The position numbers and the translations under genes are program-made. Below the pieces are notes generated by a model, which saw only the letters and a program-made list of their open reading frames with translations, did not search any database and was not told the origin of the DNA. DNA of 64,000 nucleotides, from contig NW_026777121.1 of assembly GCF_030936135.1 (NCBI RefSeq), forward strand, positions 496,001-560,000, read 5' to 3'. Source of the DNA: Gavia stellata (lineage: Eukaryota > Chordata > Aves > Gaviiformes > Gaviidae). Positions 15,575 to 31,151 of the stretch are shown here, one piece after another (position 1 is the first letter of the stretch; the number at the start of each line of letters is the position of its first letter).

Positions 15575-15615
15575 GGTACGCTGCCGGCTGCACTGGATCC
15601 TGTCCATCCTGCTGC

Positions 15616-18075
15616 TCAGGCCTTTGTCCCCCTTAGGAACTGCAGGAGCTCCTGCACCCGAGTAAAGAATTGCACCAGCCTCTGGAGTGGAAATGGGCAG
15701 GGTGTAAACGTGCCCAATTGAGTTGGTATCGGTCTCGGCCTCTGAAAGGGGCTTGAGGTGAAGCCTGGCTGTGGCGTTGGAGTAGCCGATACTGCTGGGC
15801 GCAGTCCCATCTGTGCCAGGATCCAGTCGTAAAAGTGCTGCGTGGAGGTGTAGACTCCGGGCCGTCTTGCTCTCGCGCAGCCTTTCCCCCAGCTGGTGAC
15901 TCCAACGAGCCAGAAGTAGTCTGCATTGTTATCTTTGCAGACGAGAGGACCACCGCTGTCGCCCTGCAGCGGAGGAGAGAGGACAAAGGTGTTGTTGGGT
16001 GGCCTCCGTCAGCACTACGGCTGGCTCCTTCTCTCTCACAGCACCTGCCAGAGCTGTGCTCTGCGGCACAGAAAGGCCCCGCTCAGGTGCCGGGGCCTAC
16101 AGGAGCTTGTGTGGGAGGGGGTGGTGGGCCTGTAAGGTAGGGCTCTCTCTCCTCTCTGCACAGCGATCCTTCTTCACGTGTGGAACGCACATGCTCCAGG
16201 CTTGGGATGTGGAGCTGCGTGCTGCCAAGAGCACTGGATGGGCTTTGTGGGCAGAGTCGCAGGCCTCTGGGGCAAGGGGGGCACTGGGCAAGGAGCTGCA
16301 GGTGGGGAAGGGGAGGTGAGCCCCAGCAGCGGTGGGGACCCAGCGGTGGGAGGGTGACTTGCCAGGCAAAGCACGCGCTGGGGTCTGCGTGGGACGGTTG
16401 TGAGAGGGCTGCCTGTGCTGCTGGGGCTTGACTCGTAGCACGCTCCTACCTGGCAGGTGTCGATGCCACCCTGCGCGTAGCCAGCACACAGGTTGTGGGT
16501 GTGGATGGCCCCTCTGTACCACCCGCTGCTGTTACAGAGGTTGACATCAATGAGGCGGACCTTGGCCTCCTGCAGGACATCAGTTGATCCTCCAGCTGTG
16601 AGCACAGAGAGGAATTAACACCAGGCAGCTCGTTGCCATTTCTCCTCCCCTGTGTGGGTGAAGCCCTTCCCTAGGGCTTGGCTTTGCACCTTGAAGGCAC
16701 TGTACCGGTGGTCCCCTTGTGCCTCCCTTTGGGGAATGGCTCAGGCCCATCTCTCTAGAGGCATGCGTCCCCGCAGCCTGACTCTGGCTTTCGCCTCTGC
16801 TCTCAGGAAGCCCAACCCGTCTCCCCTGCGTGCCAAGCTTGCGCTCAGGACACGAGTACTTTTTGGGAACTCACATCTTGCAGTCGTGGAACCCCAGCCG
16901 CTGGCGTAGCAGGTTGTCAGCTCTGACACTCTCAGCGAGGCGTCAGGCACACAGGCAAGCTGGATGGAGTAGCTGCACTGCACAGGCTGGTCCAGTTCCA
17001 GCAGGGCGATGTCGTTCCTCTGCGTGATGTTACTGTAGTGCTCGTGAACCAGTAGCCGCTTGATATGGCGCACTTGGGCCTCAGGGCCCAGCTGAGTCAA
17101 CCGGGTGGCCCCGACCACCACGCGCCACATGGTGATGTGCCTGGAAGGCAGAGGGAGAGAGGGGTCAGAGGGAGCGGAGCCATGTGCTGCAGCAGCCCTG
17201 CAGTTCCCTGCCTTCTGCTCCGCAAGGGAGAGAGGCACGCAGCGCTAGGGAGGGGGCGAGTGCGCTGGCACGCCTTAGGCACAAGGAATGTTGAGCTGGA
17301 GGCTGCTAGGAAGCAGTGGCACAAGCCCAGCCTTCTCCTGAGCAGTCTCTCAGCTGGGCTCTGCAGTACCCAGGCACTGGGCGGACTGCAAGGAGACGGG
17401 ATGGCAGTAGCACGCGGTGCTGCGGACAGGGCACCTGCTAGTGTTGTGGGGATATCCGCGTTCCCTGGTCCTCCCCTTACCTGGCCTCAATGAAGCAGTG
17501 GGCTGCTGTGAGGACCCACTGTGGGCTGATGAGGGACCCTCCGCATGTATGCCCCGTGCCTGTTTTCCAGGGATCCTGGATGCTGACGATCCAGGGCCAG
17601 GCCCCTGGCTGGGCATCTGTGCCACCCACGACGCGCGACACGCCGTGCTGAGAAGCCATGGGCCGGAGTCCGCAGGTCCCTCTGGAAACAGAAACTCCTC
17701 ATTACTGTCCTGCTCGAGGGCTTGCTGCTCTTCAGGCTACGAGTCAGCTGTCTTCCCTCTCCACAAGGCGTTGCGTGGACAGCAAGGCCAGGGAAGCCCG
17801 TGGGGCGTGCGTGCATCCACCCCCGTTTCTGTTTTATCCCCGCAGGCCAGTTGTGCCAGCAGCGTGGGTGCTGGCAAGGAACTGAAGTTCCCAGGTGGGG
17901 TTCAGGAAGCTGTGGCGTGGCCACGGGGGACAAGCGGGCACCCTCCAGTGAAGCCCATAAGGGTTGCCGAAGCTCCCTGCCGGAGCCTTGGGCCACTTAC
18001 TTACCCACAGGTGTCCCACGTGCCGTGCGCAGGCCCGCACAGGGCCAGCAGGACGAGGAGGCGGAGCAAATTCAT
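15616..18075 (-). CDS. ACR: Acrosin, array copy 1 (leftmost), five exons, intact
   Basis: Trypsin-like S1 serine protease of the sperm acrosome, acting on proteins with Arg/Lys sites at fertilisation. CDS is complement(join(15616..15963,16450..16595,16875..17140,17481..17681,18005..18075)), 1,032 bp, 343 codons plus stop. All junctions are GT-AG and phases agree. Signal peptide [18 protein letters not shown] is followed by a short light chain (CGGTCGLRP), the activation site SR-VVGG, catalytic His in LTAAHC, Asp in NDIALLEL and Ser in GDSGGP. The Asp of DTCQGDSGG fits the trypsin S1 pocket. NIT and NSS are possible N-glycosylation sites. The proline-rich tail after WILAQMG is about 60 residues, shorter than in mammals. 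A private feature is His in QVRHIK. The array's shared poly(A) signal is missing downstream of this copy; one lies at 15,180. Confidence 0.93.
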
Positions 18076-18189
18076 CGCTGCCAGCAACACGTGGCAGCTG
18101 CAAGCACGGAGAGCTCGTCGCCACCAGCGCGGCAAACGACGTAGTGCCCGCAGTACTCGCGTTGCCCGCGGTGCCCTTGGTCCCGGGGC

Positions 18190-18197
18190 TGATGTCA
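18190..18197 (-). promoter_or_regulatory. CRE-like site upstream of acrosin copy 1
   Basis: The minus strand reads TGACATCA about 115 bp before the start codon, one base from the consensus CRE. CREM/CREB sites are known in promoters of genes expressed in spermatids. The same site lies at 23,875-23,882 and 29,559-29,566 for copies 2 and 3. Confidence 0.4.
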
Positions 18198-18887
18198 CAG
18201 AGTCGCTGGTTCCGGGTGCTGGGCGTGGTGGCCTCTCGGGGCAGGGGGGGCAACATGGGGGGGTTCCAAGCAGGAGGGGAGGCAGAAGCTGGCATCGGAC
18301 GCCCCCGACAGTCGCTCCCCCCCCACCCAGCACTGAATGCTGTGCTTGTGGGATGAAGGCGTGCAGGCCCCGTGGCAGGCAGCAGCACCTGCCTCCGAGC
18401 ACTGCCTGCTAACAGCTGGCAGGAAAAAACCAAGTGGGGCATCATAGCCTCTTTGGGAAGTTCACTGCCACCCTGCTCCCTGCAGCCGTTTGCCAGCAGC
18501 TCCTTCCCAAAAAGCATACGCCAGAGAACAGAACTGCTCCAGGCAGTAGGCACATGTCTGGGCATTGAAGAGCCAATCTGGTTATAGCCGCGGCAGGCAA
18601 GCAGTGATGTGCAAGCCAACTAAGGCAGGCGTACCCAAGCAGTGTCAGCCTTCCGGCACAAAGCCCCGTGAAACGCAGACGCAGCACAGGCCATCGTGGC
18701 TACGTCAGCCACAGCAACAGCCTCTGGCAGGCTTCCTGTCCTTGCTGTCTATGAGTTACGTTGCTGTTCTGGGCCAACACCGACAAGGGCAGTTGTGGCC
18801 CCTGGTACGCGTGGCCAAGGACACGCAATTTTAGGCTCTAGCCAGAGAAGGATGCTCCCGCTCTCAGCACCACACGCCATTCTCCAT

Positions 18888-29444: not shown

Positions 29445-30256
29445 CGCTGCCAGCAACACGTGGCAGCTGCAAGCACGGAGAGCTCGTCGCCACCAGCGCG
29501 GCAAACGACGTAGTGCCCGCAGTACTCGCGTTGCCCGCGGTGCCCTTGGTCCCGGGGCTGATGTCACAGAGTCGCTGGTTCCGGGTGCTGGGCGTGGTGG
29601 CCTCTCGGGGCAGGGGGGGCAACATGGGGGGGTTCCAAGCAGGAGGGGAGGCAGAAGCTGGCATCGGACGCCCCCGACAGTCGCTCCCCCCCCACCCAGC
29701 ACTGAATGCTGTGCTTGTGGGATGAAGGCGTGCAGGCCCCGTGGCAGGCAGCAGCACCTGCCTCCGAGCACTGCCTGCTAACAGCTGGCAGGAAAAAACC
29801 AAGTGGGGCATCATAGCCTCTTTGGGAAGTTCACTGCCACCCTGCTCCCTGCAGCCGTTTGCCAGCAGCTCCTTCCCAAAAAGCATACGCCAGAGAACAG
29901 AACTGCTCCAGGCACTAGGCACACGTCTGGGCATTGAAGAGCCAATCTGGTTATAGCCGCGGCAGGCAAGCAGTGATGTGCAAGCCAACTAAGGCAGGCG
30001 TACCCAAGCAGTGTCAGCCTTCCGGCACAAAGCCCCGTGAAACGCAGACGCAGCACAGGCCATCGTGGCTACGTCAGCCACAGCAACAGCCTCTGGCAGG
30101 CTTCCTGTCCTTGCTGTCTATGAGTTACGTTGCTGTTCTGGGCCAACACCGACAAGGGCAGTTGTGGCCCCTGGTACGCGTGGCCAAGGACACGCAATTT
30201 TAGGCTCTAGCCAGAGAAGGATGCTCCCGCTCTCAGCACCACACGCCATTCTCCAT

Positions 30257-30851
30257 TGTGCTGGTTTTGGCTGGGGTAGCGTTAGTTTTCTTCTTAGTAG
30301 CTAGTATGGGGCTGTGTTTTGGATTTGTGCTGGAAACAGTGTTGATAAAGCAGGGATGTTTTAGTTACTGCTAAGCAGTGCTTACACAGAGTCAAGGGCT
30401 TTTCTGCTTCTCACACCGCCCCACCAGCGAGTAGGCTGGGGGTGCACAAAAAGTTGGGAGGCGACACAGCTGGGACAGCTGACCCCAACTGACCAAAGGG
30501 ATATTCCATACCATAGGACGTCATGCTCAGCATATAAAGCTGGGGGAAGAAGAAGGAAGGGGGGGACGTGCGGGGTGATGGCATTTGTCTTCCCAAGTAG
30601 CCGTTACGCGTGATGGAGCCCTGCTTTCCTGGAGATGGCTGAACACCTGCCTGCCGGTGGGAAGTAGTGAACGCATTCCTTGTTTTGCTTTGCTTGCCTG
30701 CGCAGCTTTTGCTTCACCTATTGAACTGTCTTTATCTCAAGCCGCGAGTTTTCTCACTTTTACCCTTCCAATTCTCTCCCCCATCCCACCCGGGGGGAGT
30801 GAGCGAGTGGCTGGGTGGTGCTTAGTTGCCAACTGGGGTTAAACCACGACA
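30257..30851 (+). mobile_element. Solo LTR in array unit 3
   Basis: It is the same 595-bp element with TCCAT at both ends (30,252-30,256 and 30,852-30,856). Confidence 0.9.
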
Positions 30852-31033
30852 TCCATGGCTTTGGTAAATCCTGTATCAGCCTCATCTCCTCAGTCTACCT
30901 TCTAGAGCTGTATGGTGGAGCCTTGCTCCCATGCTGGAGTGCAGGGCAGTCACGGGAGGAAAGCAGGAGCCAGCCCCGTGCGTTGCGTTTGCTGCGCGGG
31001 GCTAGGTCCCTGGAGGCTAGAGGGCATTGGCCG

Positions 31034-31151
31034 GTCCGGTTCCAGCAGGGCGATGTCGTTCCTCTGCGTGATGTTACTGTAGTGCTCGTGAACCAGTAGC
31101 TGCTTGATATTGCACACTTGGGCCTCAGGGCCCAGCTGAGGCAACCGGGTG
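31034..31151 (-). pseudogene. Acrosin relic in unit 3, cut by an ERV LTR
   Basis: The relic exon 3 matches the other units until CAACCGGGTG at 31,151, where the match stops and an LTR terminus (TGACATGCGG) begins. This is the right edge of the array. Confidence 0.85.

Follow-up and report, generated by a model that had tools for sequence, protein, structure and literature searches.

Acrosin is the protease of the sperm acrosome, and five coding exons are a feature of its gene family. Multiplied acrosin genes have been described in other vertebrates. The zebra finch has seven non-clustered genes, one of them without all three catalytic residues, according to a passage of PMC2865498, and an acrosin duplication in this bird is judged true in the relevant part of PMC9516828. 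For Xenopus, the passages on acrosin in PMC3434135 give 14 copies. Here we describe the acrosin genes of the red-throated loon, Gavia stellata, starting from a window of 64,000 nucleotides (positions 496001-560000 of NW_026777121.1, a 1.61-Mb contig called C917 below; N count 0). A preliminary description of this DNA considered multiple acrosin genes exceptional. That view does not survive the zebra finch and Xenopus reports, nor the several acrosin-like entries of single birds (for example six from Rhynochetos jubatus and five from Nyctibius grandis) among the best 120 of 7328 database relatives. We consider it probable that the loon has an ampliconic acrosin family, comprising a single gene on contig C4, a founder bearing a long terminal repeat (LTR), two amplified subfamilies (A and B) and co-amplified E2F genes.

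Acrosin copies in the window and across the genome

The window contains a head-to-tail minus-strand array of 2.74 acrosin units, two complete and 4,210 bp of a third (Table 1). Units are spaced 5685 and then 5684 bp apart and are about 99.5% identical, in agreement with the near-identical units of about 5.68 kb first described. Within a full unit lie a five-exon minus-strand gene and a relic of acrosin exon 3 of about 350 bp. All three window copies have a coding sequence of 1032 nt for 343 amino acids, with GT-AG borders at all four introns. The activation residue Arg40, the catalytic residues His85, Asp134 and Ser231 and the specificity residue Asp225 are present, as is a signal peptide judged by eye; the earlier claims on these features and on the splice sites were sound. 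The copies differ by H116T (recorded before as QVRHIK against QVRTIK), T291A, Q336H and two silent changes. Three complete five-exon genes had been proposed, which holds for copies 2 and 3. Copy 1 borders the edge of the array, and the roughly 400 bases searched after its stop codon contain no AATAAA, so its completeness is certain for the coding part only.

Comparisons with known proteins agree on the identity of these genes. The best solved relatives, within the best 60 of 558 matches, are ram and boar beta-acrosin (1fiw, E 4.8e-75, and 1fiz), and the 120 database relatives are mostly named acrosin or acrosin-like. One of the entries, P0064 ('acrosin-like [Gavia stellata]'), equals the T116 copies of the window by eye, except for the gene-model ends and one read-through junction. 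Residues ~283-343 form a proline-rich C-terminal extension (by eye) that is present too in the avian proteins compared, and the loon copies have the five coding exons typical of acrosin. From their sequences, the loon genes encode acrosin, a predicted acrosomal protease.

Many more copies were found elsewhere in the genome. In a DNA search with exon 5, we scored 40 of 306 candidates, and all 40 matched (29 on C917, 5 on C467, 1 on C953, 3 on C521 and 2 on C400). Of the 1314 candidates from a trypsin-domain search, we scored 150. Family counts are lower bounds because part of the candidates was scored in each search. On C917, exon-5 places number at least 29; they span 511616 to 1453754 (~0.94 Mb) and occur in both orientations. 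The earlier figure of at least three intact genes was right about the three in the window and strongly undercounted the contig. We read every C917 place except 1453407; including the window's three, 25 of 28 are intact five-exon genes and three are partial. Near 990163, exons 1-3 extend to the end of the fetched stretch, and exon 5 was not among the 40 scored. Five five-exon copies on C467 comprise three clean ones and two with an altered exon-3 acceptor, one of which also has an extra base in exon 2; a sixth unit runs off the contig end, with its gene part beyond it. In total, 28 of 33 subfamily A places read are intact, encoding 20 distinct proteins. The 30 five-exon A copies read show no nonsense change, one frameshift and two acceptor changes, the last three all on C467.

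Subfamily B appeared as exon-2-type trypsin-domain matches, at least 53 altogether: 38 on C521 (455,116 bp), 9 on C525 (72,483 bp) and 6 on C400 (245,000 bp). Their spacing is mostly about 8.3 kb, and those on C521 extend over about 312 kb. We read eight B copies, from C521 (four), C525 (one) and C400 (three). Six are intact, one is frameshifted and one is marked by a deletion of about 390 bp across exon 4 and intron 3. Judging from spacing and match, we infer that the remaining 45 are also acrosin. Seven B gene bodies differ by at most 0.7%. Intron divergence is about 5.8% between A and B, 7.1% between A and C4 and 6.4-6.9% between B and C4. Every one of the 35 intact copies (28 from A, 6 from B, and the C4 gene) keeps Arg40 (before [IV]VGG), the catalytic triad and Asp225.

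One founder and its spread

At least one intact acrosin gene stands alone on C4, a contig of 85.8 Mb, where it occupies 336961-339400. RABL2 is the usual neighbor of acrosin, and we presume that the neighbor of the C4 gene resembles RABL2; a structure-library sequence search of that neighbor gave no support. The A unit is 91.7% identical to the C4 gene over 3.3 kb. Where the A unit has a 595-bp solo LTR between two TCCAT motifs, the C4 site is empty and holds a single TCCAT. Two B units on C400, where B was checked, share the LTR insertion with A. A solo LTR and its target duplication are common to both subfamilies and missing from C4. We conclude from this comparison that A and B come from one founder, itself copied from a C4-type gene. 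The founder was a copy at the DNA level that kept its introns and upstream region and took up the solo LTR some 0.8 kb ahead of the start codon. It gave rise to subfamily A (5.68-kb units on C917 and C467) and subfamily B (~8.3-kb units on C521, C525 and C400). Retroposition as the origin was rejected because the introns are retained.

We placed the A copies among other acrosins using trees with 65 and 29 proteins chosen from the best 120 relatives, with B left out. Twenty A copies form one clade (100/99) adjoining the loon C4 gene (92/71) in the smaller tree, and A copies cluster with the C4 gene with a support of 89 in the larger one. An array inherited from an ancestor of many birds is disfavored by this grouping in both trees, which makes a loon-lineage origin most likely.

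The arrays share edges and surroundings. Array edges recur at unit position 2626 in four arrays and at 4210 in four, including the window array; other arrays end elsewhere. The flank comparison covered the window, C467 and eight further stretches of C917 (beyond 1.05 Mb, gene bodies only) and counted matches of at least 90% identity and 400 bp. The flanks match between arrays at ~94-99.7%, often inverted. For example, 504917-511572 and 527152-532564 of C917, both inside the window, recur in inverted orientation at 883334-890000 (99.4%) and 860001-865414 (99.6%). In a unit tree that carried no starred branch and whose bootstrap had not settled, the window array groups with the array at 860-890 kb (93/86), and the units of C467 form a group of their own (85/80). 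Recurring edges, matching flanks and the grouping of units in this tree speak for spread by block duplication and local homogenization. Unequal exchange would create the tandem units, and segmental duplication with gene conversion would spread them and even them out. The loon copies are many, at ~98-99.6% identity, in direct and inverted orientation and with common flanks, as in an ampliconic gene family, which supports the ampliconic setting raised in the preliminary description.

E2F genes and other features of the window

The window also contains an E2F3-like gene, whose inner exons we named by eye as coiled-coil (near 42.5 kb) and marked-box (near 46.7 kb); E2F3-like proteins of Gavia stellata are in the database. 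A genome search with all 47 candidates scored gave 36 E2F-domain matches, 24 of them on five small contigs (18 on C917, 3 on C953 and 1 each on C467, C400 and C968); the other 12 lie elsewhere in the assembly. The C917 matches fall into 11 at ~92-97 bits and 7 at 81 bits. The same search found none on C521 or C525. Because E2F and amplified acrosin share four contigs (C917, C467, C400 and C953), their arrangement suggests, short of proof, a single ampliconic region or chromosome. The acrosin exon-5 match on C953, which has three E2F-domain matches, lies at 196903-197251 with 96% identity.

Imperfect 26-bp repeats occupy 1017-2753 of the window, with a minus-strand open frame of 533 codons at 1263-2861 that has no Pfam match. 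Retroelement pieces at 5701-6639 and 44374-45021 contain RNase H and reverse transcriptase domains, with integrase domains under the Pfam cut-off. An LTR-like sequence, judged by eye, apparently starts at about 31152, past the array edge. The segment 57001-58391 is GC-rich (67% in 57001-58000), has pyrimidine-rich tandem repeats and is a candidate promoter island. An Rfam search gave no match.

Table 1. Features of the window (window coordinates) and partial acrosin copies elsewhere on C917 (contig coordinates).
Feature	Position	Strand	Details or basis
Tandem array, 5.68-kb acrosin units	15573..31151	-	repeat comparison
Acrosin copy 1, 343 aa, array edge	15616..18075	-	exons 18005-18075, 17481-17681, 16875-17140, 16450-16595, 15616-15963
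Acrosin copy 2, 343 aa	21301..23760	-	exons 23690-23760, 23166-23366, 22560-22825, 22135-22280, 21301-21648
Acrosin copy 3, 343 aa	26985..29444	-	exons 29374-29444, 28850-29050, 28244-28509, 27819-27964, 26985-27332
AATAAA past copy 2	21203..21208	-	
AATAAA past copy 3	26887..26892	-	
595-bp solo LTR (TG...CA), TCCAT both sides, upstream of copy 1	18888..19482		comparison with empty C4 site
Same solo LTR upstream of copy 2	24572..25166		coordinates by offset
Same solo LTR upstream of copy 3	30257..30851		read in sequence
Exon-3 relic	19664..20012	-	unit comparison
Exon-3 relic	25348..25696	-	unit comparison
Exon-3 relic, truncated at array edge	31029..31151	-	unit comparison
E2F3-like gene	41702..51087	+	DNA-binding exon 41702-41923; C-terminal exon 50821-51087; exons open
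Partial copy on C917	684698		exons 2-5
Partial copy on C917	708146		exon 5
Partial copy on C917	1216437		exons 3-5

Chromosome, selection and comparison with known systems

SPIN1 and CHD1 are usually present on the avian W. Domain searches with all candidates scored (16 of 16 and 6 of 6) revealed no W copy of either gene: three Spin/Ssty matches all lie on C44, and CHD1-type matches lie on C44, on C13 and, more weakly and with its identity not established, on C25. The assembly seems to lack the W, or the W parts carrying SPIN1 and CHD1, and C44 is the probable Z. Retroelement-rich ampliconic DNA on small contigs is reminiscent of the W, but the negative result for W copies of SPIN1 and CHD1 makes W linkage of the arrays disfavored, and we consider a W-linked, female-limited amplicon very unlikely. 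The chicken Z carries multicopy testis genes, and a comparable amplicon on the loon Z would suit the ampliconic content and an assembly in which no W was seen. Nothing in the analysis ties C917 to C44; Z linkage is less likely than not, with an autosome as the other candidate.

We compared variation among the 28 intact A copies, which had been picked for intact frames, so that their stop-free frames are uninformative. Of the 776 nonsynonymous sites 24 vary, compared with 12 of the 253 synonymous and 62 of the 1428 intron sites. Among C4, A and B, dN/dS is 0.35, 0.37 and 0.51. Selection on the copies is weakly indicated: the kept catalytic residues and dN/dS fit functional genes, and young neutral copies would fit too. 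Several points count against the proposed ampliconic family. The deficit of nonsynonymous changes within A is weak (p = 0.07 against synonymous and intron sites together, 0.15 against synonymous sites alone; 0.05 in an earlier test on 20 A copies), and six B copies give a piN/piS of 0.71, with no signal of constraint. Damaged or partial copies account for 5 of 33 A places and 2 of 8 sampled B copies. The sister position of A to C4 is moderately supported, B stands outside the trees, and the copy number rests on the assembly.

An assembly that falsely duplicated one or a few acrosin genes might explain why the copies sit on small contigs, between 72 kb and 1.61 Mb for those whose size was seen, of an assembly with 1185 contigs, and why the C467 array reaches a contig end. 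It would hardly yield 20 distinct A proteins, edges that repeat at the same unit positions in several arrays, or A and B introns about 6% apart, and a zebra finch duplication was judged genuine in the part of PMC9516828 cited above; we give this explanation almost no weight. The genuine ampliconic family has more than one possible meaning. The copies would supply sperm cells with more proacrosin, and a dosage family is our tentative proposal, drawn from the sequences. Neutral amplification is also possible, with acrosin and E2F merely carried along when repeat-rich DNA underwent segmental duplication and intact because the copies are young. The nonsignificant constraint within arrays, the damaged copies and the retroelement pieces in the flanks are in line with it, whereas an intact majority among the copies read, the lack of nonsense changes in A, two arrays from one founder, the dN/dS values between C4, A and B and the amplification of E2F as well speak against it. 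An unlikely extension of the dosage proposal is a selected gamete-gene amplicon, with about 100 or more acrosin copies and E2F on the Z or an autosome, the LTR as a germline promoter, and sperm competition or transmission distortion as the driving force.

With tens of intact acrosin copies in two amplified subfamilies beside amplified E2F, the loon offers a natural experiment on the dosage of a gamete protein, and its amplicon is a test case for selection, drive or drift as the source of such amplicons. A systematic survey of acrosin copy number in birds looks worthwhile.

We compared the loon family to the systems described above. Our searches of open-licence papers on acrosin, most of them judged from listings, turned up none that describes arrays of the loon kind. 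The zebra finch shares with the loon the multiplication of acrosin within a bird lineage, but the seven zebra finch genes are non-clustered in the passage of PMC2865498, whereas the loon has tens of near-identical tandem genes. Acrosin is likewise multiplied in Xenopus, and the passages on Xenopus in PMC3434135 mention neither arrays nor co-amplified genes. The acrosin-like entries of other birds belong to the same protein family, with several per species; they were compared as proteins rather than by genomic arrangement, and in the trees the A copies of the loon sit beside its own C4 gene. Sex-chromosome ampliconic families, as portrayed in part of PMC7692361, resemble the loon family in that a gene acquired from another place is present in near-identical copies, both direct and inverted. 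Those families are sex-linked, whereas the loon arrays are known here at the level of contigs. Relative to known acrosin duplication, the scale, the arrays of two subfamilies and the partnership with E2F seem undescribed in the literature searched.

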